A stretch of 30,068 nt of DNA from a virus. The notes beneath the pieces were generated by a model that saw only the letters and a program-made list of their open reading frames with translations, was not told the origin of the DNA and ran no database searches. The position numbers were made by a program, and so were the translations under genes. The DNA is taken from positions 1 through 30,068 of IMG/VR virus record IMGVR_UViG_3300015374_000038. One strand, given 5' to 3'. How positions within the stretch are numbered: the stretch's first letter is position 1; every line of letters begins with the position of its first letter. This document shows, piece by piece, positions 7,535-23,400 of this stretch.

Positions 7535-7538
7535 GTCC

Positions 7539-7595: not shown

Positions 7596-7609
7596 GTGAC
7601 CACTCGTAT

Positions 7610-7666: not shown

Positions 7667-7672
7667 GTGCGG

Positions 7673-7702: not shown

Positions 7703-7709
7703 ACTTTCG

Positions 7710-8207
7710 ATGACCGCCACCATCGAACAGCTCCGGACCAAGGCCGGCATGTCCATCAAGGACCTGGCCGTCTCAGCAGGCTTGACGTACAACGAGGCGT
7801 ACGCCGCCGAGAAGTACGAGGGCGTCGAGATCAAGCGCAACCGCGCCAAGCACGAGCGGAACCAGCAGCTGCTGCGTGAGCACCTCACCCTCCATCTGGA
7901 CGGGCAGGAGCGTGAGCAGCTGGCCCGCCGGCTCAAGCACTCCAAGCTCTCGGACGACGAGAATCTCGACGACCTTCGTGAGCGGGCACAGGCCGACTTC
8001 GTCCGTCGCATGACCTTCGCACCCGTCGGGTGGAGCAAGGAGGCCGAGTGGGAGGGCTACAAGTCCGGCGACCGGATCCAGATCTCAGGCGTCGACACGG
8101 TCTTCATCTTCCTGTGCCACACCATCACCGCCAACGACCACCACTGGGTGGACTGCTACGGTGGCGACGAGTTCCGCTCCTTTCGAGTCGAGCGGGTCGT
8201 CCGCTAA
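7710..8207 (+). CDS. Possible HTH regulator with unknown C-terminal domain (165 aa)
   Basis: Residues ~3-40 (TIEQLRTKAG, MSIKDLAVSAGLTYNEAYAAE) read like a helix-turn-helix of the XRE/HTH type, although the turn is not perfectly canonical. A charged helical linker with many Arg/Lys/Glu follows (~40-95). The C-terminal ~65 residues look beta-rich (WEGYKSGDRIQISG, TVFIFLCHTI, DEFRSFRVERVV), perhaps an SH3-like barrel. It starts at ATG directly behind a promoter that overlaps a palindrome, so autoregulation is plausible. I recognise no named family for the whole protein. Confidence 0.55.
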   Translation: MTATIEQLRTKAGMSIKDLAVSAGLTYNEAYAAEKYEGVEIKRNRAKHERNQQLLREHLTLHLDGQEREQLARRLKHSKLSDDENLDDLRERAQADFVRRMTFAPVGWSKEAEWEGYKSGDRIQISGVDTVFIFLCHTITANDHHWVDCYGGDEFRSFRVERVVR

Positions 8208-8229
8208 AGTTTCGAAAGATTCTTCACTG

Positions 8230-8308
8230 TTGATGTACATCTCTCCTCCCGCTGTGGTAGGATGACCTCATCCGCTCAGCACTGAGAGGACACCGCCACA
8301 TCAAGGAG
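8230..8308 (+). promoter_or_regulatory. Leader region of the DUF932 gene: -10 and ribosome-binding site
   Basis: TAGGAT at 8258-8263 is a good -10 candidate. TGTACA 18 bases upstream is a weak -35. The start codon at 8317 is preceded by AAGGAG at 8303-8308 with 8-base spacing. So this gene, unlike its neighbours, has a proper ~45-base leader and ribosome-binding site. A palindrome TTTCGAAA lies at 8210-8217. Confidence 0.45.
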
Positions 8309-8316
8309 ATGCCGCC

Positions 8317-9234
8317 ATGCCCACAGAGGCTGCCCACCGCGTGCCGTTCACCAAGTTCGTCACGCCCGTCGCAGAGCAGTACGAGAAGGACCCGATGGGG
8401 GCACTCGCCTCCGCGGGGCTGGACTACGAGGTGGTCAAGCGCCCCCTCTACTTCGCCTCGACTGTCCCGTCCAAGAAGTCCAAGCCCATCAAGATCCCGG
8501 ACCGGTACGCCACCGTCAAGATGTTCGACGGTGACGAGGCGTACATCGCCAACGTCGGCCCGCGCTACGAGGAGATCCAGAACCGCGATGCCTTCGGCGT
8601 GTCGCAGGCCCTCGTCGACGTCGGCTTCCTCGTTCACTCGGTCGGGGAGTCGAAGGACAGCAAGCGGGTATTCATGAACCTCCGGGCCCCGGACGGGTTC
8701 GAGGTCCTCGACGGAGAGGACCACCACGAGCTGTTCGTGATGGTCCGTACGTCGCACGACGGCACCCTCACCCTGCAGGGGCTGATCACGCCGGTCCGCA
8801 TCTTCTGCCAGAATCAGATGCGCCTGATCGAGTCGACCGCCGTTGACCGGTGGCGGTTCCGCCACCTCGCCGGCGCCGAGCTCGCGTTCGAGGCCGAGAC
8901 GATGGCCAAGCTGTGCGTGGACTACGTCAGCTCCTACCAGGACGTCGCCGCCAAGCTGGCGGCCATCGACCTGGAGCTGGACGCCACCAAGAAGATCCTC
9001 GAGAAGGCCATGCCGAAGCGGACCGAGTGGCACGAGGGCATCCTGAACGCCCTCGAGAACAGCCCGACCGTCGAGGACGCACACCGCCGCACAGGCTGGG
9101 GGCTGGTCAACGCCACCACCGAGTACCTCGAGTGGCTGCGTGAGGTCAAGACCGACGAGGCTCGATTCTCCGCCACTGTCGACGGCGCTGCACTTCGGGC
9201 GACGCGGAAGGTGCTTCGTCAGCTGACCCGCTAA
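8317..9234 (+). CDS. DUF932 phage/plasmid-like protein
   Basis: The 305-residue product matches in outline the DUF932 (TIGR03299-type) phage/plasmid proteins: an N-terminal VPFTKFVTPV/GLDYEVVKRPLY region, a central beta-rich part with GPRYEEIQNRDAF and the family-typical LTPVRIFCQNQMRL-like motif (here LITPVRIFCQNQMRL), then long helices. Such proteins are frequent on mobile elements; their biochemical role is not established, though ties to recombination have been proposed. A strong AAGGAG with 8-base spacing suggests high expression, which is unusual here. It stands alone between two promoter-like gaps. Family assignment is fairly sure; function is not. Confidence 0.75.
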   Translation: MPTEAAHRVPFTKFVTPVAEQYEKDPMGALASAGLDYEVVKRPLYFASTVPSKKSKPIKIPDRYATVKMFDGDEAYIANVGPRYEEIQNRDAFGVSQALVDVGFLVHSVGESKDSKRVFMNLRAPDGFEVLDGEDHHELFVMVRTSHDGTLTLQGLITPVRIFCQNQMRLIESTAVDRWRFRHLAGAELAFEAETMAKLCVDYVSSYQDVAAKLAAIDLELDATKKILEKAMPKRTEWHEGILNALENSPTVEDAHRRTGWGLVNATTEYLEWLREVKTDEARFSATVDGAALRATRKVLRQLTR

Positions 9235-9450: not shown

Positions 9451-9857
9451 TGTCTGTACCCGTCCTCATCACCATCACAGTGGTGCTGGCAGTCATGGCG
9501 ATCGCTCTCGGGCTGCTCGCCGCCTACTTCGACGACAGCCGGTCGTTCTTGCCGGTCGTTGGCGCGGTCATCGCCGGCATTGCTGCCATCGTGTTCGTGT
9601 TCGTCGACTTCTCCACGTACAACGAGCACAAGAAGACCGACCGCGGCCGAGGTGACGCGCCTCGAGTTTCCAAGCACCTGATCGACGGTCGCACCGCCGA
9701 CGGCATCACCGAGTTCCCGGACGGCTGGGGCAACGTCGCCACCAAGTGCGTGTGGACCGGGTGGCGTGCCTTCGAGTCGACGAAGGCGAACGGCGCCAGC
9801 TCCCTCGTCCTCGTTCCTGACGCCGAGTGCGACTTCGTAGCGACGGGTCCACGATGA
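9450..9857 (+). CDS. Membrane protein with two transmembrane helices (135 aa)
   Basis: Residues ~3-26 (VPVLITITVVLAVMAIALGLL) and ~33-54 (FLPVVGAVIAGIAAIVFVFV) are clear membrane segments joined by a short loop with acidic residues. The C-terminal ~80 residues are soluble and contain two Cys (TKCVWTGW and DAECDF). This suggests a membrane-anchored domain stabilised by a disulphide or metal if exported. No family is recognised. The stop overlaps the next ATG (ATGA). Its position just before the SGNH-like gene may be only operon packing. Confidence 0.62.
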   Translation: MSVPVLITITVVLAVMAIALGLLAAYFDDSRSFLPVVGAVIAGIAAIVFVFVDFSTYNEHKKTDRGRGDAPRVSKHLIDGRTADGITEFPDGWGNVATKCVWTGWRAFESTKANGASSLVLVPDAECDFVATGPR

Positions 9858-10906
9858 GGATCATCATCGACGACGTCGCGTCGACCTACACGCACCGCCT
9901 CGACAGTCACCGCAGCAGCTGGGCCCGGATGGTCCGCTGTGCCGTGGCTGACATGAAGCCGGAAGCCGAGGTCGAGCTCCTGTTCGACGGCGACTGGGAC
10001 GGCAAGTTCGACCAGTGGGTGATCGTCTACCCGATGGAGTTCACGGGTAAAGGCATCAACATGCAGGGCGGCCCGAACCCGAAGGTGCTGGACCGGCTCG
10101 GCCGCCTCATCGACACGGACGACGCCTACAGCCGGGTCGTCTCCCTCGAACGGCCGCTGCCGGACTACAACGAGCTGGTCGTCAAGCCGCGGTTCCATCA
10201 GGACCTCACCGAGTTCACCGAGCTGACTGGGTTGGTCCGTGAGGTGAGCCTTGAGTCGGTCGTTCGAGCTGCCGCTGCTGAGGGTGGCGCGAAGCCGTCC
10301 GTGGTGCTCGGTGACAGCCACGCTGCCAGCCACTACGTCCGTCATTCGCTGATCCTGCGGCACGACGCCCTCACCTTGTACGGCGCCCTCGAACGACGGC
10401 TCGAGAAGATGCTGCCGGCGTGGTCGCTCGACCCGGATCAGTGCTCGGGCGTCAAGCTGGTGTTCGGCAACATCGACGTACGGCACCATCTCTGCCGACA
10501 GGACGATCCGAAGGCGGCGCTGAAGTCGTTGCTCGACGCCTACCACGCGCAGGTCGACGATCTCGCCCGGTCCAGCGGCCAGGAGCTGACGATCGTGACG
10601 CCGCTACCGATCGAGTTCGAGGCCCGACGCCTGCCGAAGACTGGCTGGTACAAGGGCGCCCCGTTCTACGGCAGCCGAGAGGACCGGCTCGACCTCGTTC
10701 GAGACTGGTGGGAGTGGGCGAGCACCGAGTGCTACTACCCGACCTGGCACTGGCCGCTGTCGTGGTACCGGATGGACGGCGAGGAGTACGCCAAGTACCG
10801 GATGGAGAAGCCGAACTCTGTCCACCTCTCTCCGCGCTGGCACCTCTGGGACTACGAGACGAACGAGCCCAACGCCCGACTCATCGACGAGGTCTGGGGT
10901 GCCTGA
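9854..10906 (+). CDS. SGNH-hydrolase-like protein with N-terminal extension
   Basis: The 350-residue protein has an unknown N-terminal part (~1-145) and a C-terminal part resembling SGNH/GDSL hydrolases. Block I is VVLGDSH (151-156) with the candidate nucleophile S155; block III is FGNID (204-208) with N206; the block V His is H324 in NSVHLSP. The Asp normally three residues before that His is Asn (N321), so the triad may be incomplete. SGNH enzymes remove or transfer acyl groups. It overlaps the pyrophosphorylase-like gene by 8 bases, which hints that it acts in the same pathway, for instance on an acylated base or intermediate. The start is ATG in an ATGA overlap. Family call moderate; role inferred. 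Confidence 0.5.
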   Translation: MRIIIDDVASTYTHRLDSHRSSWARMVRCAVADMKPEAEVELLFDGDWDGKFDQWVIVYPMEFTGKGINMQGGPNPKVLDRLGRLIDTDDAYSRVVSLERPLPDYNELVVKPRFHQDLTEFTELTGLVREVSLESVVRAAAAEGGAKPSVVLGDSHAASHYVRHSLILRHDALTLYGALERRLEKMLPAWSLDPDQCSGVKLVFGNIDVRHHLCRQDDPKAALKSLLDAYHAQVDDLARSSGQELTIVTPLPIEFEARRLPKTGWYKGAPFYGSREDRLDLVRDWWEWASTECYYPTWHWPLSWYRMDGEEYAKYRMEKPNSVHLSPRWHLWDYETNEPNARLIDEVWGA

Positions 10907-11972
10907 GCTCGTCGCCACCGACGTTTACCCCGAGCTGCTGCGGTACGTCGGCATGGCAGCCCGGCTGCAGGACGCCAACATCTCGTCGTCCACTGGCAGA
11001 GACGTCACGATCCCCCTCGTCGATGACGCGCTGTGCCAGTGGGTGACGATCTACGACGTCATCGAGCGCCGCTACGCCGGGTTCTCGAACGCCCTCCAGC
11101 AGGTGTGGTTTGGGACCATGAACCCGAAGCGGTGGCAGCGGCTGGCCGAGTTCAACTTCACCCAGCAGGAGCTGTCTGCCACCGCGTGGTTGTACGTCTT
11201 CATGCTCCACCGGGTGACTGGCTCTGGTGCCTCGTTCGCCTCCGACCACGGGTTCCGCAACTCCATCGTGGCAGACGCCGTGCGGCAGTACCTCAACGGC
11301 CACTCGATGCCTGACTACGTCCTCCATGAGATGGAGAAGGGCCGACCCGTCTTCACGTCGATCGGCAACCAGATCCCGGCGTTTCCGAAGCCGGCTGACA
11401 CGCCGTACGCCCGTGGCAGTGAGCTCTACCTCCATCGCATCATGCCAGAGCTGCTCTGGGACCTGTACTACTGGCTCGTTGAGGAGACTGCTCACAAGGG
11501 TCAGATCAGCATCAAGCCGGTGATGGACTGGCTCGGAGCCTACCACCAGTCACGTGGGTGGAGCCGGTTTCACTTCGTGCACACCGCCTTCGCCATGGAC
11601 TTGGCTGAGTACATGCCGCAGTACGTCGACCCGATGAGTCACTGCTACTTCGGAGCCAACGCCGAGAAGTGCGCTGCACTGCTGTTCGAGAAGCCTCGGG
11701 GCCTGAGCAAGGACTTCTTTCATGACGCTGTGATGGAGCGATTCCAGTCTGACGTGTGGGCCATCCGGCCCGAGACGCCTGGCTTTCCCATGTCCCTTGA
11801 GGACGTGCTGTGTGACGGCATTCGCTGGATCCGCAACTACATCCCGAAGGGCTACGACCACCTGCATCCAGATCAGATCGAGTCCTCGGCGCCGGACCTA
11901 CTCGGCCGCCACCCGTCCTACTATCGACACCTCGAACTGTGGGGAGAGAAGCGTGTTCACCCGACCGCCTAA
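10899..11972 (+). CDS. Alpha-glutamyl/putrescinyl-thymidine pyrophosphorylase-like protein
   Basis: The 357-residue protein carries the landmarks I associate with this clade, in order: FMLHRVTGSGASF with HGFRN (101-121), FTSIGNQIPAF (152-162), RFHFVHTAFAMDLAEY (223-238), SHCYFGANAEKC (247-258) and EDVLCDGIRWIRNYIP (301-316). These proteins are related to helix-hairpin-helix DNA glycosylases. In phages with hypermodified thymidine they displace pyrophosphate from an activated hydroxymethyl base with an amino acid or amine. The gene overlaps the SGNH-like gene upstream and the PLP enzyme downstream (20 bases), so the three are coupled. The family is recalled from motif memory, not searched. The actual base here could be cytosine rather than thymine. 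Confidence 0.62.
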   Translation: MPELVATDVYPELLRYVGMAARLQDANISSSTGRDVTIPLVDDALCQWVTIYDVIERRYAGFSNALQQVWFGTMNPKRWQRLAEFNFTQQELSATAWLYVFMLHRVTGSGASFASDHGFRNSIVADAVRQYLNGHSMPDYVLHEMEKGRPVFTSIGNQIPAFPKPADTPYARGSELYLHRIMPELLWDLYYWLVEETAHKGQISIKPVMDWLGAYHQSRGWSRFHFVHTAFAMDLAEYMPQYVDPMSHCYFGANAEKCAALLFEKPRGLSKDFFHDAVMERFQSDVWAIRPETPGFPMSLEDVLCDGIRWIRNYIPKGYDHLHPDQIESSAPDLLGRHPSYYRHLELWGEKRVHPTA

Positions 11973-12900
11973 CGGCGACAACAGCCTGCTCGAGCACGTC
12001 ACGTGGTGGGACTTCGTCGGCCAGCACCGCAACGGGCCGGAGCTGACGCCGCTGCGTGACTCCATGCTCAACTACGTCTGGCAGCTGGGGTTCAAGAGCC
12101 GGTTCGCCGAACCTGTCGTCCTCCAGGAGGACGGCGTCAACGTGGTCGACGAGTCGAAGCTGGGCGTCGGCTCCAAGGCCCGGTTCGGTGAGCTCCTTAT
12201 CAGCCAGGTGGAGGAAGAGGAGCTCGTCTATGTCCAGCCTCGGCACGGCTGGGCTGGCATCAGTCTGTTGGCGCTCGCTCAGATGTACGGCAAGAAGCTC
12301 ACGCTGTTCATGCCCGCCTCCGGCAAGTCGTCTGACACGCAGCGGCTAGTCATTGAGCTCGGTGCCGAGCCTCGGTTCATCCGGATCGCGGCGATGCCGG
12401 TCCTCAACAAGTACGCCCAGGAGTACGCCGTCAAGAAGGGGGCGTTCTTCATCCCGTTGGGTCTGCGACACCCGCTTGTCACTGCGAATGCCGTCGCCCA
12501 GATCTACGAGTTCATGCGGGAGTACCCGCCGGGTGAGATGTGGTGTGCCACCTCCACCGGGGTATTGAGCCGATCGCTTCAGATCGCCTTGATGCCGAAC
12601 ACCTGGATGGTCCATTCGGTGGCAGTGGCCCGCAACCTTCACGCCGGAGAGCTGGGTCGCAGCACCTTCACCTCCTACGACCGGGCGTTCGATCAGCCCG
12701 CGCGGAAGCTGCCGCGCACGTTCCAGTCCGCCCACAACTACGACGCCAAGGCGTTCGAGATTGCAGTCAAGCACCAGTCCATGAACCGGCCGACCTGGTT
12801 CTGGAACGTGGCCGGCAACGTGCCGAAACCCATGCTCCAGCCTGAGGACGTGAACTCAGCTCGCGAGTGGGGCGACCTGCGTGACTTCTTCGCCGCCTGA
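11953..12900 (+). CDS. Fold-type II PLP-dependent enzyme
   Basis: The 315-residue protein resembles cysteine synthase/ACC-deaminase-type enzymes. GSKARFGELL (73-82) places K75 where D-cysteine desulfhydrase-like proteins carry the Schiff-base lysine. VQPRHGWAGISLLALAQMYG (94-113) matches the loop and helix that bind the substrate carboxylate, and KKLTLFMP...VIELGAEPRFI follows the usual pattern. TSTGVLSRSLQIAL (about 198-211) corresponds to the phosphate-binding Gly region. The start chosen is GTG with GGGGAG upstream, overlapping the previous gene by 20 bases. Tight coupling to the pyrophosphorylase-like gene suggests it makes or tailors the group attached to DNA. Substrate unknown. Confidence 0.65.
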   Translation: MFTRPPNGDNSLLEHVTWWDFVGQHRNGPELTPLRDSMLNYVWQLGFKSRFAEPVVLQEDGVNVVDESKLGVGSKARFGELLISQVEEEELVYVQPRHGWAGISLLALAQMYGKKLTLFMPASGKSSDTQRLVIELGAEPRFIRIAAMPVLNKYAQEYAVKKGAFFIPLGLRHPLVTANAVAQIYEFMREYPPGEMWCATSTGVLSRSLQIALMPNTWMVHSVAVARNLHAGELGRSTFTSYDRAFDQPARKLPRTFQSAHNYDAKAFEIAVKHQSMNRPTWFWNVAGNVPKPMLQPEDVNSAREWGDLRDFFAA

Positions 12901-13102
12901 AGTCACCGCGTTCTACACCTATCTGGAGCAGCCGAACAAGTACGCTTGGCGGTTCTTCATGGGTCGGCTGATGATCGGTGGCTGGGTTCTTTCACCTCAA
13001 CAGCACGAGGTCATGGAGAAGTGGGCAGCGGATGTGGGTCTCAGCCTTACCCGCGAGGCTAGGATGCCATCCCCAGACGCCGCCGCCCAGGAGGAAGCGT
13101 GA
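12881..13102 (+). CDS. Hypothetical protein (73 aa) coupled to the PLP enzyme
   Basis: The GTG start overlaps the PLP gene by 20 bases and the stop overlaps the primase-helicase GTG by four. The 73-residue product has an aromatic-rich helix (YTYLEQPNKYAWRFFMGRL), a likely second helix (SPQQHEVMEKWAADVG) and a disordered tail. It might be a small partner or assembly factor of either neighbour. No family is recognised. Confidence 0.6.
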   Translation: MTSSPPEVTAFYTYLEQPNKYAWRFFMGRLMIGGWVLSPQQHEVMEKWAADVGLSLTREARMPSPDAAAQEEA

Positions 13103-15594
13103 CCGACGCCATCATCGACCAGCGTACGGCCACCTCGCCGTACTTGCTCGCCGCACTGGACTACGCGGCTCGAGGCTGGTCGGTCGTGCAGGGCGCCAAC
13201 GTCAAGGAGAAGCGCCCGCTGCGAGGAGGCGACGCCTGGGCCGGGTCGACCGACCCTGACGTGCTGCTCGGGTGGTGGACCGAGAAGCCCTCCGGCCTGG
13301 TCGGCGTCTCACTCGGCCCATCCAACTTACTTGTGCTGGACATCGACATGCACGAGGACGAGAACGGCGACGTCATCGACGGCTTCGCCTCGTTCGAACG
13401 GCTGCTCGAGGTGCTGCGGATCGACTGGTACGACCTCGTCTCGCAGACGCTGGTCAGTCGGACCGGCGGTGGCGGCATGCACTTCTTCTTTCAGGCGCCA
13501 GACATCGAGAAGGAGCACCTCCGCCGGATCATCAAGTGGCATCCCGGCGTGGACATCCTCTGCGGCCGGTCGTATGCGGTGCTCAGTCCGTCGATCCACC
13601 CGGAGACCGGACGCCAGTACATCTGGGAGCCGAAGGGTCGGACGCCTGAGCAGGGACCCGGGCCGCTGCCGCCCAAGCTCCTCGAGCGGGTGGTCTCAGC
13701 GCTCATCAGTCGCGAACGTCACGAGGACGGCACCTCCGCGTCATACGCCACGGATGCAGCTGAGCTCTTCCGTAGGGGCTCTGCCTCAGGGTCGCGCAAC
13801 AACGACCTCGTCCGCATCGTGGGATGGCTGAGGCGCCGCCTCGCTCCGGGCCCGGATCTGCACGAGCGAATCCGCCAGCAGGTCGAGATCTGGCGAGACC
13901 GCTGCACACCGCCCTACCGCGGGTCGGTCGAGGACCTCGAGTTCGAGAAGTCCTTTGCTAGCGCACTGAGCCTGCCGCACGTCGACGTGGTGCTGCCGGA
14001 GTGGGGACGACCGACTGCCATCCAGCACGACGGTGTCACCGAGATCGGCGAGATGTCAGCCGAGGCGCTGGCACGGTGGGCCTACCCCCACCTGGCCCCA
14101 CACCTCCGGTACTCCCGCGAGGAGGGCATGATCTACCGGTGGCGGGACGCCTACTGGCAGGCCGGCGGCCCTCGACACGAGGACGTGCCTCGGCTGCTGG
14201 ACGAGCTCGGGTTCTGCGGCACCATGCGTCGGTCCGTCGAGACCACCACCATGCGGATCGCCGGCGAGGCCACCACCGAGCGGGAGCAGACCAACGCTGC
14301 TCGGATCGGCAAGGAGTGGGAGAACTGGCGCCGCCGTCAGGTGGAGTCGAAGGCTCTCATCTCGACGGCGCTGCGGGTGGCCTCCTCGGACGAGCTCGGC
14401 GTGGGTCGACAGACCTGGGACTCCATCCCACACCTCCTCCACTGTGTCAACGGCGCGGTGGACCTGGAGACCGGTGTCCTGCATCCGCACGACTCGGCGC
14501 GGATGAACTGGTCGCTGGCCCGGGCGGTGTTCGACCCCACCCTGCAGGGCCGAGACCCGGTGTCGGAGCTCGGGCTCCAGACCCTCGGCCCCGCGTGGCA
14601 CAAGATGCTAGGCCTCGTCACCCAGGACGAGGACCTCCAACGGTACCTGCAGCTGGCCTTTGGCGTCAGCTGCTTCGGCGACAACCGCGCCAAGGCGATG
14701 TTCATCCTGCACGGCATCGCCAACAACGGCAAGACCACACTGCTGAACGCAGTGATGGCGTCGTTAGGCGTCAACGACCGGACCTACCCCCTCTCCGGCG
14801 CTGGCGCCTACGCCGCCTCAGTCGACAAGCACGTGCTCTGCGAGGCCCGCGGCAACAACGAGCAGCACCCCGCTGGCCTGGCCTCAGCGCTGCTCCGTCG
14901 CATGATCACCATGAGCCAGGAGTACACCCCGCAGGACCGGCTTCGCCTCGAGATCGTGAAGGCCATCACCGGCAACGAGGTGATCGCCGCGCGGTTCATG
15001 CGGCAGGACTTCTTCGAGCTCCAGGCCCGGTGCACGCCGTGGATGGCGACCAACGAGGAGGTCCAGCTCGGTGCCTTCGACGAGTCCATCCGCACCCGCA
15101 TCAAGCCGATCGAGCTAGAGGGTGAGATCCCGCCGGACGCGCGACGTCCCATCTCCCAGGTGCTGACTGAACTGTCGACCCCGGATGAGCGGACCGGGCT
15201 GCTGACCTGGCTGGTCCTTGGAGCTCGAGCAGTGGTGGACGGACAGCCGGCACTCGACCGCCTGGAGCCGGCCAAGATCGGCGAGAGCCTGAGCAACATG
15301 GTGTTCGACCAGGACTCGGTGCTGGCGTGGATTGACGCGCGCTGTGTACCGGTCGCCACGGGTGAGCGACCCGATCTGTTGAGTGCCTTCGCCCTCCGCG
15401 AGATCAAAGGCTCCACAGTGGGAGTGCTGTTCCACGACTACACGATGTGGACGCAGGCGAAGGGCATCGTGCCGGTCACCCAGGTGGGGTTCACTCGACG
15501 CGTGCAGTCCAGCCTGCGGATCAACTCCAGCATGAAGATCCGAGACACGGTGGACGGCGAGCGGGTCCGGATGTTGCCATTGGTCCTGAAGTGA
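13099..15594 (+). CDS. Primase-polymerase/SF3 helicase fusion
   Basis: The 831-residue protein joins two replication domains. The N-terminal ~200 residues resemble the bifunctional primase/polymerase family: LVLDIDM (78-84) with D81 and D83 as metal ligands, SRTGGGGMHFFF (120-131) with H128, and GVDILCGRSYAVLSPS (150-165) with D152. A D5_N-like middle part follows (HLLHCVNGAVDLETG). The C-terminal P4/D5-type SF3 helicase has Walker A GIANNGKTT (539-547) and a downstream VLCEARGNN strand. Such fusions make primers and unwind DNA at the phage replication fork, partnering the DNA polymerase encoded at 16309-18120. GTG start in a GTGA overlap. The length is normal for the family. Confidence 0.85.
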   Translation: MTDAIIDQRTATSPYLLAALDYAARGWSVVQGANVKEKRPLRGGDAWAGSTDPDVLLGWWTEKPSGLVGVSLGPSNLLVLDIDMHEDENGDVIDGFASFERLLEVLRIDWYDLVSQTLVSRTGGGGMHFFFQAPDIEKEHLRRIIKWHPGVDILCGRSYAVLSPSIHPETGRQYIWEPKGRTPEQGPGPLPPKLLERVVSALISRERHEDGTSASYATDAAELFRRGSASGSRNNDLVRIVGWLRRRLAPGPDLHERIRQQVEIWRDRCTPPYRGSVEDLEFEKSFASALSLPHVDVVLPEWGRPTAIQHDGVTEIGEMSAEALARWAYPHLAPHLRYSREEGMIYRWRDAYWQAGGPRHEDVPRLLDELGFCGTMRRSVETTTMRIAGEATTEREQTNAARIGKEWENWRRRQVESKALISTALRVASSDELGVGRQTWDSIPHLLHCVNGAVDLETGVLHPHDSARMNWSLARAVFDPTLQGRDPVSELGLQTLGPAWHKMLGLVTQDEDLQRYLQLAFGVSCFGDNRAKAMFILHGIANNGKTTLLNAVMASLGVNDRTYPLSGAGAYAASVDKHVLCEARGNNEQHPAGLASALLRRMITMSQEYTPQDRLRLEIVKAITGNEVIAARFMRQDFFELQARCTPWMATNEEVQLGAFDESIRTRIKPIELEGEIPPDARRPISQVLTELSTPDERTGLLTWLVLGARAVVDGQPALDRLEPAKIGESLSNMVFDQDSVLAWIDARCVPVATGERPDLLSAFALREIKGSTVGVLFHDYTMWTQAKGIVPVTQVGFTRRVQSSLRINSSMKIRDTVDGERVRMLPLVLK

Positions 15595-15603
15595 TGTTAC
15601 CGT
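15574..15603 (+). promoter_or_regulatory. Promoter TTGCCA-N18-TACCGT for the lipoprotein gene
   Basis: TTGCCA (15574-15579) matches TTGACA at five of six positions. TACCGT (15598-15603) fits TANNNT. The spacing is 18 bases. The ATG at 15613 is 9 bases after the -10 and has no clear Shine-Dalgarno sequence, giving a nearly leaderless transcript separate from the primase-helicase gene. Confidence 0.45.
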
Positions 15604-15612
15604 TTGTTGACT

Positions 15613-16083
15613 ATGAAACAACTTCGAATCATCCTCGCTGTCCTCACGTTCGGAGTCCTCGCGTCCGGTTGCACGTTCAACCAAATGAATCGGTACTTCG
15701 AGTGGCTGCCCGTGCTCGGTCAAGAGAAGGCCGATCAGGTTGTCGCGCAGTACAACGCTGAGGAAGCGGAGGACACAGCCGGTCGCCCGTGCGCCGACGC
15801 CTACCCCTACTTCCGAGACGCGGGCTTCGACCGCAGTCAGTGGGGTGTCATGTCGGCGCTCTGCTGGCGAGAGTCGATGGACACGCTGACCGCCGTCTCA
15901 CCGACGCACGACTTCTGTTGGTGGCAGATCAACCGGTCCGCCCATCAGAAGCGACTCCTGGAGCTGGGGATCATCCAGAACTCCATGTACGACCTGCTCT
16001 ACGAACCCCAGGCCTGCGCCAACGCCGCCTTCGACGTGTGGAGTCGAGCCGGATACGGTGCCTGGGCGACCTACCACAGGTAG
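15613..16083 (+). CDS. Lipoprotein with lysozyme/transglycosylase-like domain
   Basis: The 156-residue product opens with a classic lipoprotein signal: basic MKQLR, a hydrophobic core (IILAVLTFGV) and the lipobox LASGC with C20 as the lipidated residue. After a linker, residues ~60-155 look like a small lysozyme-like domain: CWRESMDTLTAVS (84-96) with E87 at the catalytic Glu position, DFCWWQIN (100-107) matching the usual GLFQIN motif, EPQACANAAFDVWSRAGYGAWATY (131-154) matching the C-terminal NA...A..G..pW. Three Cys pairs may form disulphides. It would be anchored outside the membrane. ATG chosen over an upstream TTG because the signal then starts normally. Possible roles: superinfection exclusion or cell-wall modification. 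Confidence 0.7.
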   Translation: MKQLRIILAVLTFGVLASGCTFNQMNRYFEWLPVLGQEKADQVVAQYNAEEAEDTAGRPCADAYPYFRDAGFDRSQWGVMSALCWRESMDTLTAVSPTHDFCWWQINRSAHQKRLLELGIIQNSMYDLLYEPQACANAAFDVWSRAGYGAWATYHR

Positions 16084-16092
16084 GATCCGGCC

Positions 16093-16257
16093 GTGCCTGA
16101 GGAACGAAAGCCCTGTGGCTGCGGCGGCGCACCGCCTCAGGACTACATGACGTTGAAGCCAGCCCCTCCGTCGGAGCCACGACCAGCTCGGGTGTACCCA
16201 GAGCCAGCCGTGCCTCAGACGCTCTCTGACCTTCAGATGGGGAAGCCCTCACCTTAG
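16093..16257 (+). CDS. Possible small Pro-rich protein (54 aa)
   Basis: A GTG-started frame of 54 codons with AGGA 7-8 bases upstream. The product begins MPEERKPCGCGGAPPQDY and is Pro-rich, with a CGC motif near the start. It fills the gap between the lipoprotein and the convergent polymerase gene. Short length and low complexity make it uncertain. It could be a disordered zinc- or metal-binding peptide, or non-coding. Confidence 0.35.
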   Translation: MPEERKPCGCGGAPPQDYMTLKPAPPSEPRPARVYPEPAVPQTLSDLQMGKPSP

Positions 16258-16308
16258 GGTGGAACCGTGGAACCACGCGGCTCAGGAGTCAGTGGCGCGG
16301 AGGTGGCC

Positions 16309-18120
16309 TCAGTCCTCGTCGGTCTCAGTGTCCACGTCTGAGTTGTCCGTGACGACCTCGTCCCGGTACTTGTCGCCCCACCGCTGGTAGACGTCCACGC
16401 CCACCGTCAGCGGCACTGCCCAGTTCTCGGTGTCCGGCATCACTGTCTCTAGCGTGTGGATCACGTCCGGGACGTCCTCATCCGGTACGTCTAGGACCAG
16501 CTCGTCGTGGATCGTCAGCATCATGTAGTCCTGGAGGCCGGCCTTGGCGACTCGAACCGTGGCCTGCTTCATGACGTCAGCCGCAGCGCCCTGGATTAGG
16601 TAGTTGACCAGCACGTACTCCTTGCCGGCCTCACCCATCTGCAGTCGGCCGAGCGGGGTGCGCACGAACGGGCTGCCGTAGTTCTGGGTGCGCTGTCGTC
16701 CGGTGGCGATGACTGAGCCGATGAAGCTGGGCACACCAGGGTAGAGCTCGTCGTACCGGTTGTAGACGTGCTGCGCCTGCTCCAGCGGGATGCCGGCGGT
16801 GAGAGCGAACTTCGCCACGCCCGCCCCGTAGATCTTCGAGAAGCTGGTGTTCTTGACTGGCACGTACCGCGGGTCGCCCTTGGCGAAGCTCGGGTCCTGG
16901 TAGATCATCTGCCCGGTGGCGACGTGGATGTTGCCGCTGGCGATCGCCGCGATCATGTTCGGGTCGTGGCAGAAGTGGGCGAGCAGCCGGATCTCGATCT
17001 GGTCGAAGTCCGCCATGATCAGTCTCCGACCGGGTCGCGCGACGAAGGCGTCTCGTACCTCAGGTCCTCGGATCAGGTTCTGGAGAGAAGGACGGGACAC
17101 TGACTGGCGTCCCGTCCTGGCCTGCAGCGTGTTGAGGCTGGCGTGGAGGATGCCGTCCTGTGCCAGCAGCAAGAAGTTCTTCAGGTAGGTGTTGACGATC
17201 TTGCGCTTGCGGCGTACGAGCAGGGCGCCTTGAGCGCCGAGCCGAACCTTCTCGCTGACGCCGCTCGCCATCAGGTAGCTAAGCACCGCCTTGTCCATCT
17301 TCCAGTCGCCGTTCTTCGTGCGCTCGGTGAGCTCCTGGCCTTGGCCGAGCAGCCAGCCAGCCAGCTGCTTGTTGGAGCCGACGTTCGACAGGTCGAGGTT
17401 GTCCTTAAGCCACGCCTGGATCTCGTTGGCCTCTGCCTTCAACTGTGCTGACTTGGCGTGGCAGTACTCCTCGTCGATCATCACGCCGTTCCGCTCCATG
17501 CGGTACGACACCGGCTTGACCGCCCGTTCGAGATCGTAGACGTCGAGGAGGTCCTGCTCCTTCAGTTGTGGCATGAACTCCTCAGCGAGGCAGGCAGCTA
17601 AGACCGTGTCGAGGGCGCCATAGGCCCAGTACTCGGGGAGGTGGATGGGCACGGTCCCCCAGTCCCACCCGTTCCGGGCCTTGACCTCCTTCAAGAGCTT
17701 GTCACCGGCCGCCGCCTTGCTGTCGATGTGGCGGGTGGCCAGCTGCTTCAGTCCGGCGGCTCCGACGGAGTTGATGAGACGTCCCATGGATACGGTGTCA
17801 TGTACTCGGTCCCATGGAAGCTCGTATCCGGAGTCGACCTCGAGGTTGTGGGCGTCGAACCCGATGTTCGAGCCGACAATGGGCCCTTGCCATCGTGTAA
17901 GCGCTTCAACCACCGCACCAGACCAGCGCCGCCACTCGAACGCCCATCCGGCGTGCTGATCACCCAGCTGGCCCAAACGGAGTGTGTCTCGCCACCAGTC
18001 GAGGCCAGAGGTCTCGACGTCGAATCCGAGCCAGTCATGATGTCTCCCCATCCACTCGTGAAAGTCGGCGATGTCGTCCATCGTCTCGACGAGACGAAGC
18101 GGGACGTCTGGGTTGATCAC
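16309..18120 (-). CDS. Family A DNA polymerase with 3'-5' exonuclease domain
   Basis: A ~603-residue replicative polymerase of the Pol I family without a 5' nuclease domain. The exonuclease motifs are FDVETSGLD, GSNIGFDAHN and YGALDT. The polymerase motifs are A, MADFDQIEIRLLAHF; B, a variant VPVKNTSFSKIYGAG; and C, LTIHDELV. The catalytic Asp/Glu residues are present in all. The tail is strongly acidic. I chose GTG at 18120 because it makes a GTGA overlap with the dCMP deaminase stop; GTG at 18147 is possible and adds nine residues. It would replicate phage DNA with the primase-helicase and must accept whatever modified dNTP the phage makes. It is last in the kinase-hydroxymethylase-deaminase operon. 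Confidence 0.9.
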   Translation of the reverse strand: MINPDVPLRLVETMDDIADFHEWMGRHHDWLGFDVETSGLDWWRDTLRLGQLGDQHAGWAFEWRRWSGAVVEALTRWQGPIVGSNIGFDAHNLEVDSGYELPWDRVHDTVSMGRLINSVGAAGLKQLATRHIDSKAAAGDKLLKEVKARNGWDWGTVPIHLPEYWAYGALDTVLAACLAEEFMPQLKEQDLLDVYDLERAVKPVSYRMERNGVMIDEEYCHAKSAQLKAEANEIQAWLKDNLDLSNVGSNKQLAGWLLGQGQELTERTKNGDWKMDKAVLSYLMASGVSEKVRLGAQGALLVRRKRKIVNTYLKNFLLLAQDGILHASLNTLQARTGRQSVSRPSLQNLIRGPEVRDAFVARPGRRLIMADFDQIEIRLLAHFCHDPNMIAAIASGNIHVATGQMIYQDPSFAKGDPRYVPVKNTSFSKIYGAGVAKFALTAGIPLEQAQHVYNRYDELYPGVPSFIGSVIATGRQRTQNYGSPFVRTPLGRLQMGEAGKEYVLVNYLIQGAAADVMKQATVRVAKAGLQDYMMLTIHDELVLDVPDEDVPDVIHTLETVMPDTENWAVPLTVGVDVYQRWGDKYRDEVVTDNSDVDTETDED

Positions 18121-18635
18121 TGCAGCCGCAGGACTGCGATGAGGCACTGTTTCATCAGCGTGACGCCCTGCTCAATGGCGGTGTAAACCTCGTCAGGGTA
18201 GCCCTCGGGCGCTGGACCACAGACCACGCGCTCCACGCCTGAGTTGCAGATCAGCTTCGCGCAGTCGAGGCACGGCACGCGCGTCGTGTAGAGGGTCCCG
18301 CTCTCTCGGTGGCGTCGGTCGCTGGTCAGCAGTGCGTTGGCCTCAGCGTGGATGGCCACGCAGCCGTCGTAGGAGGCCGGCACGGCGCCGTCCAGGGCCC
18401 GCGGGCAGAATGAGTCGCACATCATGGCGTCAGGCAGCCCATGGTCGCCCGTGCCGATGTACCGACTAGGATCCCAGTCAGCGGCTGGGCCGTTGTAGCC
18501 TGTAGCCACGACCCGGTTCTGCTTGTCGACGATCACACAGCCCACCTGGCTGCGGACACACCGGCTGCGCTTCGCCACCTCTTGGGCGACGGCCAGCCAG
18601 CTCTCGTCGATGGTGGCTCGGCGGCGCTCAGCCAT
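18117..18635 (-). CDS. Deoxycytidylate deaminase
   Basis: The 172-residue protein has the zinc-dependent cytidine-deaminase signature of dCMP deaminases: HAE (96-98) in AIHAEANALL and PCLDC (121-125) supply the zinc ligands and the proton-shuttle Glu. GYNGP (46-50) fits the substrate loop. Extra Cys at 73, 77 and 92 may form a second metal site, as in T-even dCMP deaminases. It turns dCMP into dUMP. It starts 8 bases inside the end of the thymidylate-synthase-family gene and is followed by the polymerase. Together with a dCMP-type hydroxymethylase it would drain the unmodified dCMP pool, as T4 does. Confidence 0.85.
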   Translation of the reverse strand: MAERRRATIDESWLAVAQEVAKRSRCVRSQVGCVIVDKQNRVVATGYNGPAADWDPSRYIGTGDHGLPDAMMCDSFCPRALDGAVPASYDGCVAIHAEANALLTSDRRHRESGTLYTTRVPCLDCAKLICNSGVERVVCGPAPEGYPDEVYTAIEQGVTLMKQCLIAVLRLQ

Positions 18636-19443
18636 GGAGCGCCTTGCAGGCGATGCGGGCTCCGTCCGTGGAGAGCGTGGCGTCGTTGCCGTGCCAGATC
18701 TGCTCGCAGACCCACTGCTGATGGGCCCGCACCGTGACGCCGAGCGGCTGCAGCTGCGACACGTCGTGTGCGATCTCGGCGTGCTGCACCTTCATGATCC
18801 CGGACATGTCGGTCATGTAGGCGTGCAGCGAGTTGGCGTGGTGGTAGTAGTCACCGACATCGACCTGGAGGAGCTCAGCGACGTTGAGCTGGAGGAAGCA
18901 GAACTGGAAGATGTCGTACGGCGTCCCCAGCCACACGTCGTTAGAGCGCATGGTGGTGTGGAGCTCGAGGCACCCATCGCGGATCAAGAACTGGAGGCTG
19001 AGGGTGCACGGGTAGTCGTGCAGGTTCTGCCGTCCCGACAGGTCCTTCTCCTTCTCCCAGATCTGGATGACCGCCTGCCGTGACTCGGGGTCGGCGGTGA
19101 GCCGCTCCAGCACGTTCGTCACCTGAGCTCGGATCCGCGGACCGTAGGCGCCGTGCATGATGCCGTCGTCTAGGAACGCCTTCATTTGCGGGAACCAGTC
19201 GCAGAACTGCGGCACGTCACTGAAGCCGCCGAGCAGCTGGATCGCTTCGGCGTACGCGAACTTCATGCTGAAGCCGCGGCTGATTCCGGTGGCGATGCAC
19301 GCCGTGGGATCAGTGAGGTGGATGGTGGTGGAGGGCAGCTCCAGCGTCTGCTTCCCTCGCGGAGCGACGTGGCGTCCTCTCATCACCACGTGTCCGAGGA
19401 TCTTCTGGTACCCAGCCCTCATGTCGTCGATGTGGATCAGCAA
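18628..19443 (-). CDS. Thymidylate-synthase-family enzyme, probable dCMP hydroxymethylase
   Basis: The 271-residue protein is clearly of the thymidylate synthase fold: catalytic C146 in DYPCTLSLQF, RSND (166-169) for phosphate, GTPYDIFQF and SLHAY (205-209). Two features depart from thymidylate synthase and match T4 dCMP hydroxymethylase: the Cys is followed by Thr rather than His, and the residue that reads the pyrimidine 4-position is D177 (PYDI) instead of Asn (PFNI in E. coli, also position 177). Asp there selects cytosine. The strand before RSND (FLIRD...MRSNDV) also resembles T4. Start is TTG with AAGGAG 8 bases upstream, overlapping the kinase gene. Plain dCMP methylation or a variant dUMP enzyme remain possible. 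Confidence 0.75.
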   Translation of the reverse strand: MLIHIDDMRAGYQKILGHVVMRGRHVAPRGKQTLELPSTTIHLTDPTACIATGISRGFSMKFAYAEAIQLLGGFSDVPQFCDWFPQMKAFLDDGIMHGAYGPRIRAQVTNVLERLTADPESRQAVIQIWEKEKDLSGRQNLHDYPCTLSLQFLIRDGCLELHTTMRSNDVWLGTPYDIFQFCFLQLNVAELLQVDVGDYYHHANSLHAYMTDMSGIMKVQHAEIAHDVSQLQPLGVTVRAHQQWVCEQIWHGNDATLSTDGARIACKALHG

Positions 19444-20381
19444 GCTGCGAGCTCCTTCGGTGTGGCGTCGTCCCCGGTGAGCGCCGCGCGCCCGAGCAGC
19501 TCGCCATACTGGCGACCGCGCATCGAGTGGAACCGCTTCACCCACTGAGGATGAGGAACTGTAGCGTGGTCGAGGCCATGCTCAGCCAAGATGCTGGAAG
19601 CCTCGATGCCCAGTGCCACGAGGTTCGGGTACTCTAGGACGTGGACCAGGTGCTCGAGGTCCGGATCCTCACCTGCGTTCACCAGGCCGTAACAGTAGGT
19701 CTCGCCGAACCGGTCCAGTGCTTGCATCAGGAAGGCACCCGACGACCAGCCGTACGGCGCGAAGGCACCAGGCAGCCCGCGGCGCTGTGCCAGCGAGGAG
19801 CGCTCGTGTCCCACGAAGAGGTGCCGCACGTGTCGACCGCCGACATACGAGTCGTGCGACGCCAGGACCGACGACTCCAGATCTCGATGCTCAGCCGCCT
19901 CCATCAGCAGCGAACCGTAGGCGGAGCGCCGCAGCGGGTTGAGCGACACGGCCCGCTGTCCCCGCTGCTGAAAGTGAGCGATGTAGTCGAGGTAGATCTG
20001 CTTGACCTGGTCGACGTCGATCAGCTCGTCGCCTTCTGACCGGATCCGGTTGTAGATCACCGTCATGGGCGTGTCCACCCAGATCAGCACGGCGCCTCGA
20101 GACCGGAGGTACAGGTCGATCCAGTCCTCCACGTAGTTCGGCATCCGGCTCTCGCCACGCAGCAGCGGGCCATAGATTTGCTCACCGATGTGGAGCCGGT
20201 CGCAGACGACGTGGTCGTACTCCTGCAGGGCGCAGTCGACCCGACGGACGTACTCGTCTAGTGGGTGGCGTTGGATGGGACCTGAGTGCAGGACCTCCAC
20301 CTCACCTTCGAGGTGCGCTTGTAGCTCCTTGACGAGCGTGGTCTTGCCGGCTTTGTCAGGTCCCTCGACTACGAACAGCAT
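19437..20381 (-). CDS. Nucleotide kinase fused to a uracil-DNA-glycosylase-like domain
   Basis: The 314-residue protein has two parts. Residues 1-~165 are a thymidylate-kinase-like P-loop domain: Walker A EGPDKAGKTT (6-15), DRLHIGEQIYGPLLRG (61-76) and a WVDTP strand (101-105). Residues ~185-300 resemble the uracil-DNA glycosylase superfamily: LFVGHE (188-193), YGLVNAGE (231-238), LVALGIEA (254-261) and VPHPQWVKRF (275-284), the last at the place of the HPS motif. The kinase half would phosphorylate a (modified) dNMP. The other half may act on bases or have lost cleavage. ATG start directly behind a TATGAT -10, likely leaderless. It is the first gene of the operon. Confidence 0.7.
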   Translation of the reverse strand: MLFVVEGPDKAGKTTLVKELQAHLEGEVEVLHSGPIQRHPLDEYVRRVDCALQEYDHVVCDRLHIGEQIYGPLLRGESRMPNYVEDWIDLYLRSRGAVLIWVDTPMTVIYNRIRSEGDELIDVDQVKQIYLDYIAHFQQRGQRAVSLNPLRRSAYGSLLMEAAEHRDLESSVLASHDSYVGGRHVRHLFVGHERSSLAQRRGLPGAFAPYGWSSGAFLMQALDRFGETYCYGLVNAGEDPDLEHLVHVLEYPNLVALGIEASSILAEHGLDHATVPHPQWVKRFHSMRGRQYGELLGRAALTGDDATPKELAAC

Positions 20382-20389: not shown

Positions 20390-20419
20390 ATCATATCATC
20401 CGATCCGAATGCCCCAGAA
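20390..20419 (-). promoter_or_regulatory. Promoter TTCTGG-N18-TATGAT of the nucleotide operon
   Basis: On the minus strand TATGAT (20395-20390) is a near-consensus -10, 8 bases before the ATG at 20381. TTCTGG (20419-20414) is a weak -35 at 18 bases. It lies at the end of the tail-fibre gene, so the kinase-hydroxymethylase-deaminase-polymerase operon can be expressed apart from late genes. Confidence 0.5.
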
Positions 20420-23400
20420 TCCGATGAGAGCACTGGGACCACCAGTTGCCACACCCGCAGCAGTGCTAATGAAGTCAGCCAGTGTCACAACGCCAGAGCC
20501 GGTGACAGGCGCAGATCCCTGTGCCGCAGCCGTCACAGGAGCCAACGTCACGGCTACTGTGCCAGTGACGGACGTGGTGGATGAGCCAGTCGCGTTAGCG
20601 GTGAAGGCAGCGAGTGTCGTGGCGGCCACGGCCTGGATCAGCAGCGCTCCTGTGGCTGCGACTGTGACAGTCGCGAGCGTCGAGGCGCCTGTTCCGACGA
20701 TCGACTCAGTGCCAACAGCGCTGGAGGTGAACGAACCCAGTGTACTTGCGGCAGTACCAGTGATCGTCTCACTGCCAGTTGCGGTGGAGGTGACAGGAGC
20801 GAGCGCCGAGGCAGCGGTTCCCGTGATGATCACTGAGCCGGACGCTGTTGACGTAAAGTCAGCGAGGACTGCGGCGCCGTTCGAGCCCGGGTTGGTGACG
20901 GATCCTGACGCGGTCGAAGTGCAGTTGGCCAGCGTTTGGGCTGATGTGCCGGTGACCGTGGCCCACCCAGATGCGGTCGACGCAAAGTGCTGAAGAGTCT
21001 GAGCTGAAGACCCGGTGATCGTCTCCGTGCCGCTGGCGCTGGACGTGAAGTTCTGGAGGGTCTGAGCTGAGGTGCCGGTAGCTGTGGTCCATCCAGCGGC
21101 AGCGCCTACTACATTGGCAAGCGTCGGCGCCGCAGTGCCTGTAATCGTCTCTGTACCTGTAGCTGTCGAAGTGACGTTCTGAAGCGTCTGGGCTGAAGTT
21201 CCTGTGACAGTGGTCCAACCCGAGGCAGCGCCTGTGAAGTTGGCCAGCGTCGATGCAGCCGTGCCTGTAAATACTTCTGCGCCTGTAGCTGACGACGTAA
21301 AGTTGGCTAACGTAGATGAAGCGGTACCGGTGATCGTCTCAGTGCCAGTCGCTGAAGACGTGAAGTTCTGAAGCGTCGTGGCGCTCGTACCGGTGATCGT
21401 TTCCGTGCCCGAGGCGGCGGCCGTGAAGTTGGCCAGTGTGACGGCACTCGAGCCGGTGATAACCAGCCCCGACGTGCCCGACGCCGCACAGGTGACGTTC
21501 TGGAGCGTGGTGGCAGCGGTGCCGTCGGTCGGGTCCAGGTCGACAACCAGGAGCCAGTCGTTCGTCGTGTCGGCGTGAGCCGACGGGTAGGAGATGCTTC
21601 GGCCCGACTGCTGCGCCTCTGAGGCCGCTATCGACGTATACGTACCGTCCTGCGGGTTGTACCAGCGGAGCCGAACGTGGCTGATCCCAGTCAGGATCGT
21701 CGTGTCGACGGCGACCGTGCGAGACGACGGGAAGTACGCGATCGCAGCTCTGGCGTAGGCGCCCTGGGCAGCCTTCGTGTCGCCGGAGCCCTCCCCGGTC
21801 GTGACGAACCCTGAGGTCGGCGCCCAGTCCGTGTGGAGCATGTAGGCGTCAACGACATCCCAGATGTACGACTGTTGAACCGTGTGGTCGTGGGTTGGGA
21901 CGTCTTGCCAAGTGAGGCTCTCGTCGTAGAGTCCAGTGGCGCCGAATACCCACCAGTTCTCCTGGCCGTAGTTGATGACACTGCCGCCCTCGATGAAGAC
22001 GGCAGAAGAACGCTCGCGAAGTTGCTGTCCGAGATTCCCCGAATAGTGAGGCGAGCCGTCATAAGGTGGTTCGCAGTCGCCGGCCGGTCCCGAGGTGGTC
22101 CCTGATTCCGTGTAGGCCGCCTCGAAGAGCTCCACCGAGTTCGAGCCATACTCGTACATGCAGTTGATCGGCACCGCGAACTGGGTCGTGTTCAGCCACC
22201 CCTGCTCATTGGTGGATGAGCCGTTGTTGACCTCCATCCACCGGACCGGGCGGGCAGGGGACTCCGTGTCATTGACGCCGTCGTAGAACGCCTCGATGCG
22301 GGCGCCGATCGTGGACCCAGGACCACCTGTGTCGTCAATCATGACGTGCCACAAGATGTTCGACGCCGACGCGTACCGGGTGGCGACCGCCACCCCCGCG
22401 TTATACATATCCGTGTTGGTCACGGCTTCCATGTCGGCACGCGCCCCCGTGGAGCCGAAGGCGACAGGCAAGCTGAGCGAGACGGCAATCCCAAGTCGTG
22501 CCGCCTCGGCCACAATCTGGTCGTAGGTCGACCAGCCGGACCCGAGCGAGCTGGCCCATGGCGTGCCAGACCAGAAGCTCGCCCCGGCCGCGTTCTTGTA
22601 GTACGAGCTCGACACCTGCCACGAAGAGTTCAGCCGATAACCGCCGCCCATCCAGACGGTGACCCCGTTGAACCCGTTACTGGCGACACCCTCGAGGGCG
22701 GTGGTGATATCGGCGTTGGACAGCCGGTACATGCCCCACGAGGAGAAGGACCTCAAGAGGTAGACATTTCCGGTCTGATCGAGGATCTTGCGCCCGGAGA
22801 TCGACGCCGGGAACGCTGCGGAGTTACCAGCCGACGTGAAGTTCTGGAGCGTGACGGCGACGGTGCCGGTGATCGTCTCGGTGCCAGTCGCCGTCGAGGT
22901 GAAGTTCTGGAGAGTGACCGCTACTGTTCCGGTGTTGCCGCCTGCAGTCCCTGACGCTGACGAGGTGAAGTTGGCGAGCGTCACGGCCACGGTGCCTGTG
23001 AAGGTCTCAGTGCCGGACGCCGACGAGGTGAAGTTCTGGAGGGTCGTCGCGGAGGTGCCGGTGATGTCGGCCAGACCCGACGCATTGGCCGTGAAGTTCT
23101 GCAGGGTCACCGCGACGGTGCCGGTGGCCGACGAGTCGGCGCTGCCCGACGCCGCGCTCGTGAAGTTCTGGAGGGTGGTGGCCGAGGTGCCCGTGATCGA
23201 CGGGGGGTTGAGGACGAGGATCGCCGCGCAGTGGTCCCGGGCGGTGCCGAGCATCGTGGCGTGGTCGTAGGTCTGCGCGCCGGCAGCAGTGAGGAGCTTG
23301 TAGGTCGAGTTCAGCGTCGAACCCGAAGTAGTCGTGCCCGAGCCGCGCCGAGTCAGGGTGACCCAGGTGCCGTTCGTCGTGTCGGTGTCTTGAGTAAAGG

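Follow-up and report, generated by a model that had tools for sequence, protein, structure and literature searches.

The window analysed here, 30,068 bases long, is the entire IMG/VR record IMGVR_UViG_3300015374_000038, which comes from an uncultured phage and is possibly a fragment. All open reading frames named in a preliminary description of this DNA are present where that description placed them. Three of them follow one another on the plus strand and encode an SGNH-fold protein of 350 amino acids (9854..10906; its frame is open from a GTG at 9827, and the length is counted from the ATG at 9854), a pyrophosphorylase-like product of 357 amino acids, here called PPx (10899..11972), and a fold-type-II PLP enzyme of 315 amino acids (11953..12900). 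The first two genes overlap by 8 nt and the last two by 20 nt, the arrangement seen in operons with translational coupling. The minus strand encodes a family A DNA polymerase, PolA (16309..18147; PF00476, E 9.5e-60; phrog_17, E 2.8e-112), a dCMP deaminase (18117..18635; PF00383, E 3.7e-20; phrog_174, E 1e-38), a thymidylate synthase (TS)-family enzyme (18628 to about 19440; PF00303, E 6e-19) and a P-loop protein that resembles thymidylate kinases and ends in a UDG-like domain (19437..20381; PF02223, E 4e-5; phrog_761, E 5.5e-17). The TS-family frame is open from 19545 and, since its upstream part overlaps the kinase gene, probably starts near 19440.

Sequence and predicted structure of the encoded proteins

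Nothing in Pfam scored above cut-off with the SGNH protein (best E 0.032), which matches phrog_13881 (E 8e-45). Foldseek aligned its AF2 model (pLDDT 89.6) with the SGNH hydrolase 2hsj (probability 1.00); its matches were to esterases and, at a weak level, to an acyltransferase. The motifs G153-D-S155-H, D208-x-R210 and S322-V-H324 are invariant in 28 homologues. By its GDS, block III and catalytic His motifs, together with the modelled fold, the protein is a member of the SGNH hydrolase superfamily.

The PLP enzyme is recognized by PALP (E 8.2e-7) and phrog_7093 (E 2.1e-34), and its lysine K75 is invariant (7 homologues). It aligns by hhalign with gp52 of phage M6 (E 3.2e-10 over 205 columns), whose gene adjoins that of the M6 transferase gp51 (PF18724, E 1e-46). 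This homology bears out the earlier placing of the enzyme in a hypermodification context, and we propose that it produces or modifies the group to be attached, the role presumed for its homologue next to the M6 transferase.

PPx and its homologues gave no match in Pfam or NCBIfam and only a weak one in PHROGs (E 0.033). The Pfam profile of amino acid:DNA transferases (ADDT, PF18724) matched neither PPx of the window nor any of 14 diverse homologues, even with E allowed to reach 10; the positive controls, M6 gp51 (E 1e-46) and phiW-14 gp110 (E 1e-10), were readily found; among 25 records, only M6 and phiW-14 contained matches. Membership of PPx in ADDT by profile was rejected on the outcome with the three libraries. 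Likewise, no aGPT-Pplase3 (PF18746) was found in nine related records and no HMUDK_hel (PF18723) in the window, and with a local HMUDK_hel profile PPx sequences came no higher than first among the non-members (E about 1). Alignments by hhalign of PPx with ADDT (E 0.3) and with M6-type HMUDK_hel (E 0.04) were not significant, and ADDT and HMUDK_hel paired with each other no better (E 0.03).

The AF2 model of PPx, of moderate confidence (pLDDT 75, pTM 0.79), had no match in a fold search of the PDB. In Foldseek it matched A0A6J5L8T5 (E 1.6e-13) and A0A6J5LCY1 (E 6.9e-4), both with an ADDT domain, and the HMUDK-helical protein of phiRSL1 (probability 0.99). A C-terminal motif, ED..CD..R, is invariant. 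From the model we propose that PPx is very distantly related to the amino acid:DNA transferase/HMUDK-helical superfamily and is a putative DNA-acting group transferase. The earlier reading of this product as a pyrophosphorylase relative holds in part: the predicted structure and its ADDT-labelled matches point to the superfamily fold, but no profile library, Pfam included, recognizes the protein. A genome-contig scan gave no bacterial relatives, and tblastn with three PPx proteins gave no match in cultured phages, so that the search turned up no phage in culture that has the whole trio.

The closest solved relative of the TS-family enzyme in the PDB is MilA, a CMP 5-hydroxymethylase (E 2e-26). 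The enzyme carries the motifs PCT...GTPYD and an Asp at the position of E. coli N177, and thus combines a TS fold with the catalytic Cys146 and Asp177 expected of a dCMP hydroxymethylase. We predict this function from the sequence, with the reservation that D177 cannot tell a hydroxymethylase from a dCMP methylase. D177 is present in 47 of 47 resolvable cassette loci, as a cytosine-type hydroxymethylase, suggested previously, would require, and the nine copies with His or Asn are additional canonical TS paralogues. In M6, whose hydroxymethylase is of the dUMP type, the residue at this position is Asn. D177 has been described as the mark of cytosine-modified phages (PMC8670742).

The P-loop protein is a predicted (hm)dNMP kinase. 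Its UDG-like tail is weak: PF03167 reached E 0.0015, under the curated cut-off, in the homologue at locus L124, which is alignable to the window. A kinase with this tail occurs at three loci only, adjoining the cassette in L124 and L143, and is therefore not a constant part of the system. PolA would incorporate the modified nucleotide.

Co-occurrence of the genes across viral loci

PPx is encoded at 69 viral loci, with a GC content of 28.5-64.4% and many gene orders. SGNH and PLP genes lie within 2.5 kb of it at 61 of these, a recurrence far beyond chance; the deaminase is found at 55, the TS-family gene at 48 and all five genes at 42, making this a gene set common to dozens of unrelated phages. 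In L124 and L143 all six genes form one run, SGNH-PPx-PLP-kinase-TS-deaminase, which supports the earlier supposition that the two loci of the window belong to one system. In L117 SGNH and PPx are fused.

Among 134 SGNH loci, 62 combine SGNH with PPx and PLP, 45 combine it with HMUDK_hel and myo-inositol-phosphate synthase, and none has both sets together. Because it is equally found with a different helical protein and with the inositol enzyme, SGNH looks like the shared core, and we propose that it is a putative activation or group-transfer enzyme common to the system. The preliminary description had SGNH merely tailoring a group derived from the PLP enzyme, a role that this second pairing does not support. 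HMUDK_hel with myo-inositol-1-phosphate synthase occurs in T4-like phages; 44RR has a sodium:solute symporter.

Relation to known modification systems

The 5-hmdU system of phages M6, ViI and phiW-14 comprises a 5-hmdU kinase, an amino acid:DNA transferase and a PLP enzyme. In these phages 5-hmdU is incorporated first, then phosphorylated and modified post-replicatively (PMC6449724). The window shares with these phages a TS-family hydroxymethylase, a deaminase and a phage polymerase, and, as in M6, a protein of the transferase superfamily adjoins a homologous fold-II PLP enzyme of the gp52 type. It differs in that the hydroxymethylase is cytosine-type (D177, where M6 has N), PPx lies outside Pfam ADDT, and an SGNH enzyme is found instead of the HMUDK kinase or HMUDK_hel. 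A dedicated DNA kinase had been expected to lie elsewhere in the genome. However, no homologue of the 5-hmdU DNA kinase (P-loop PF18748 plus helical PF18723) was found in the window or in 15 related virus records, which may be incomplete and which include seven cassette-bearing ones of 136-225 kb; the same search does detect M6 and phiW-14. The kinase with the UDG tail was rejected as the DNA kinase of the pathway, being present at three loci only and having no HMUDK profile match. With an M6-type DNA kinase undetected, SGNH is the likeliest stand-in for activation.

Phage T4 makes and incorporates hmC with gp42 dCMP hydroxymethylase, gp1 dNMP kinase and cd deaminase, and decorates it with glucosyltransferases. 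The same kinds of nucleotide-level enzymes are encoded here, whereas SGNH, an ADDT-like protein and a PLP enzyme stand in place of the UDP-glucose-dependent glucosyltransferases. The cytosine-modification phages identified by MetaGPA also couple a D177 TS-family enzyme with a second enzyme for hydroxymethylated cytosine, in their case a carbamoyltransferase (PMC8670742) rather than the trio. The main text of that paper contains no SGNH, PLP, pyridoxal, inositol or pyrophosphorylase, and the literature that we searched, in which many subscription papers are missing, yielded no account of phage DNA modification that involves SGNH or inositol.

Aeromonas phages 44RR, 31 and 25 have gene 42 (dCMP hydroxymethylase) and no glucosyltransferase, and how their hmC is protected was left open in 2010 (PMC2993671). 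All three encode a homologue of the SGNH protein of the window (26-29% identity, E about 1e-22 to 1e-33); unlike in the window, it is fused to an HMUDK_hel-like domain in 44RR and 31, two phages in which PPx was not detected.

A predicted pathway for hypermodified cytosine

We consider it probable that the six genes, together with the phage polymerase, constitute a viral pathway in which hmC is made, incorporated and, after replication, decorated with an amino-acid-derived group. Judging by the families to which the proteins belong, the TS-family enzyme with D177 would make 5-hydroxymethyl-dCMP, the kinase would lift it towards the triphosphate, the deaminase would tune the dCMP/dUMP pool, and PolA would build hmC into DNA. 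PPx may then bind hmC in the DNA and join the group, made or reshaped by the PLP enzyme, to the hydroxymethyl carbon. SGNH may replace the DNA-kinase step of M6, either by turning the hydroxyl into an activated form such as an ester or by aiding transfer via a serine intermediate. The basis for this pathway is the gene identities, the intact motifs, D177, co-conservation and the undetected M6-type kinase, from which we infer the chemistry.

The division of labour within the trio could be different. Like the helical subunit of 5-hmdU kinase, PPx might serve solely as a scaffold that binds DNA and flips bases; SGNH would then transfer an acyl or aminoacyl group to hmC, and the PLP enzyme would make the small-molecule donor only. 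The invariant catalytic motifs of SGNH, its pairing with, and fusion to, either PPx (L117) or HMUDK_hel (44RR), and the extra enzyme of the inositol version, clearly a small-molecule maker (myo-inositol-1-phosphate synthase, PF01658, E 3e-22), are in keeping with this. Yet the helical protein tracks the group enzyme perfectly, PPx with PLP at 62 loci, HMUDK_hel with the synthase at 45, and never mixed, an indication that recognition of the group lies with the helical protein, and we regard a purely scaffolding PPx as unlikely.

It is still less probable that hm-dCMP or hm-dCTP is modified as a free nucleotide and the bulky product then incorporated: the TS-family and deaminase genes do adjoin the trio at most loci and the phage encodes PolA and a primase, but DNA is the substrate of the better-known PPx relatives, and the dNMP kinase is missing from nearly all cassettes. 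That the trio acts on a cell-surface sugar, lipid or metabolite, and sits near the nucleotide genes as fellow early genes, we consider very improbable. It is common for SGNH enzymes to add ester groups to sugars or remove them, consistent with the esterase and acyltransferase matches above; against this, a cytosine-type TS is linked in every resolvable cassette, in many gene orders, and the modelled fold of PPx appears to be that of DNA-modification enzymes.

The post-replicative pathway may be one case of a general SGNH-based decoration of hmC that dispenses with a DNA kinase and exists in at least two interchangeable versions, amino-acid-derived (PPx and PLP) and inositol-derived (HMUDK_hel and myo-inositol-1-phosphate synthase); we put this forward as a tentative possibility. 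To our knowledge, phage cytosine is known to be decorated with sugars, with carbamoyl and with groups derived from carboxymethyl, and amino-acid-derived groups are known on thymine only. From the cassette we predict that cytosine carries a group of the amino-acid type and that SGNH is an enzyme class new to DNA hypermodification; if the general scheme is true, both versions would yield undescribed DNA bases. SGNH is also a concrete candidate for the protection of hmC in Aeromonas phages 44RR, 31 and 25, and since these are cultured, the SGNH hypothesis is directly testable there. New modified bases matter as chemical handles on DNA and for the resistance of phages to restriction and CRISPR, and the system, if true, would be a new way of hiding viral DNA from bacterial defences.

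Conservation and arrangement of the cassette

The window, a complete 30,068-base IMG/VR record of 64% GC for which we found no near relative among cultured phages, contains every ORF named in the preliminary description, and each was translated. Plus-strand genes for an SGNH-fold protein (9854–10906), a 357-amino-acid protein designated PPx (10899–11972) and a fold-type II PLP enzyme (11953–12900) overlap by 8 and 20 bases, an arrangement resembling that of a coupled operon. The minus strand encodes, consecutively, PolA (16309–18147), dCMP deaminase (18117–18635) and a TS-family enzyme (18628 to about 19440), all with strong family matches, and a kinase (19437–20381). The UDG-like domain proposed for the kinase is kept as a weak call, because its homologue in the related locus L124 gives a weak UDG-superfamily match in the C-terminal half and the window kinase aligns along that protein. 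Elsewhere, a plus-strand replication/recombination block (1837–9234) encodes an SNF2 helicase, PD-(D/E)XK nuclease, AAA_24 ATPase, and DUF669 and DUF932 proteins; locus L010 has a similar helicase–nuclease order upstream of its cassette. Adjoining probable structural genes is a minus-strand ORF (20396–24076) whose 1226-amino-acid product contains a collagen-binding-type domain (PF12904, E 3.5e-10) and matches nothing in PHROGs.

A PPx profile scan of viral contigs yielded 53 loci, rising to 69 once an SGNH scan was added; these include near-duplicates, and our argument rests on the gene-order classes instead of on the total. The loci span 28.5–64.4% GC and many gene orders. SGNH and PLP genes lie within 2.5 kb of PPx in 61 of the 69, the deaminase is present in 55, the TS-family gene in 48 and all five genes in 42. 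Since L124 and L143 carry SGNH–PPx–PLP–kinase–TS–deaminase as a single run (one small ORF separates PLP from kinase in L143), the window's two loci, proposed earlier to form one system, are indeed parts of a single system that became separated. In another locus (L117) SGNH and PPx share one 787-amino-acid ORF. At L001:7192–7869 the cassette is split by a gene resembling those of HNH homing endonucleases, and in 16 loci a 227-amino-acid family of similar size recurs as an insert separating PPx from PLP. PPx was not found in the bacterial genome contigs scanned.

Identity of PPx

PPx had zero Pfam and NCBIfam matches and a weak match only in PHROGs (E 0.033). Nothing relevant emerged from scanning 14 diverse homologues in Pfam, and membership of the Pfam ADDT family (PF18724) by profile was rejected. 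The AlphaFold2 model of PPx (pLDDT 75, pTM 0.79) matched viral proteins annotated as amino acid:DNA transferase (29% identity, E 1.6e-13; 13% identity, E 6.9e-4). Weaker matches were to HMUDK-helical proteins, those of phiRSL1 (probability 0.99) and phiW-14 (probability 0.85). Sequence-profile comparisons of PPx with ADDT and with HMUDK_hel (PF18723, the helical part of 5-hmdU DNA kinase) fell below significance, as did that of ADDT with HMUDK_hel. PPx sequences ranked above all other non-members when scored with a locally built HMUDK_hel profile (E about 1), and the non-significant hhalign match to the HMUDK_hel set lands on the same C-terminal Cys motif. On these grounds we call PPx, by predicted fold, a putative diverged clade of the ADDT/HMUDK_hel superfamily. 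The earlier assignment to pyrophosphorylase relatives is supported by the modelled fold, although Pfam and NCBIfam profiles gave no match. In L138 (6580–12141) and L116 (11008–13195) a second protein of 340–350 amino acids with an EDKLC-like end adjoins PPx, giving a weak PPx-profile match in L116; SGNH in L138 is followed by a gene for a C5 cytosine DNA methylase.

A cytosine-type TS-family enzyme

The nearest solved structure to the window TS-family protein is MilA CMP 5-hydroxymethylase, and the protein has Asp at the position of Asn177 in E. coli thymidylate synthase. A Cys-Thr/Asn...Asp copy occurs in all 47 PPx loci with resolvable TS-family residues; where a His/Asn copy is present (nine cases), it is a second thymidylate synthase of canonical type. 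The enzyme of M6, which makes 5-hmdU, has Asn, and Asp177 is a mark of cytosine-modified phages found by MetaGPA (PMC8670742). Together these observations support the cytosine-type hydroxymethylase suggested in the preliminary description. The enzyme may methylate rather than hydroxymethylate; we favour hydroxymethylation.

In 5-hmdU-based hypermodification, ADDT installs an amino acid, which PLP or radical-SAM enzymes reshape. M6 encodes an ADDT (gp51; PF18724, E 1.4e-46), a PALP enzyme (gp52), to which the window PLP enzyme is homologous (hhalign E 3.2e-10), and a 5-hmdU kinase and its helical domain (gp54 and gp55). Modification in M6, ViI and phiW-14 comes after 5-hmdU has entered the DNA and a DNA kinase has phosphorylated it (PMC6449724). 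Unlike M6 and phiW-14, our positive controls, 12 trio records (seven of 136–225 kb) and three SGNH records yielded no HMUDK kinase; virus records can be incomplete, and this absence is therefore suggestive only. PLP-enzyme homologues annotated as DNA modification methylase occur in Erythrobacter phage R6L (L005:13804–16235, part of a long ORF) and Microcystis phage Mae-JY30 (L006:14971–15696, after two ParB-like genes).

The SGNH protein and the proposed pathway

Structural matches of the SGNH model (pLDDT 90) are to SGNH esterases, with a weak one to an acyltransferase; GDSH, D208 and H324 are invariant. Viral contigs hold at least 578 relatives, the best 80 of which were kept. Of 134 SGNH loci, 62 have PPx together with PLP, whereas 45 have an HMUDK_hel protein (E 1.7e-12 in L066) together with myo-inositol-1-phosphate synthase (PF01658, E 3e-22). 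None has both sets, and the remainder are mostly short contigs. Aeromonas phage 44RR (L004:8408–12388) encodes a 795-amino-acid SGNH::HMUDK_hel-like fusion next to a gene for a sodium:solute symporter; the HMUDK_hel-like domain of the fusion shares homology with its stand-alone counterpart (E 1e-21). The two exclusive partner sets and this fusion argue that SGNH is the shared core, with the helical protein and group enzyme varying together. Phages 44RR, 31 and 25 have gene 42 and lack glucosyltransferase, the nature of their modification being left as a question (PMC2993671). The SGNH homologues of T4-like phages (L066:9959–14398, L121, L118 and some 40 more viral loci) adjoin myo-inositol-1-phosphate synthase and the HMUDK_hel protein, together with a HAD-like small protein and an FkbM methyltransferase, possibly reflecting an inositol-derived DNA modification. 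A stand-alone SGNH homologue in Aeromonas phage AS-gz (L007:5783–9047), in whose genome no HMUDK_hel match was found, adjoins UDP-galactopyranose mutase and a 318-amino-acid protein, maybe a third version.

In the pathway we propose, hm-dCMP would be made, phosphorylated and incorporated, as the enzyme families support. PPx would then place on hmC in DNA an amino-acid-derived group that the PLP enzyme makes or reshapes, and SGNH would act either as activator in place of the kinase or as the transferase. Such a system is undescribed in the literature searched. We conclude that the cassette is real and widely conserved, and that it would carry out amino-acid hypermodification of DNA on cytosine rather than thymine, with the help of an enzyme new to such systems.
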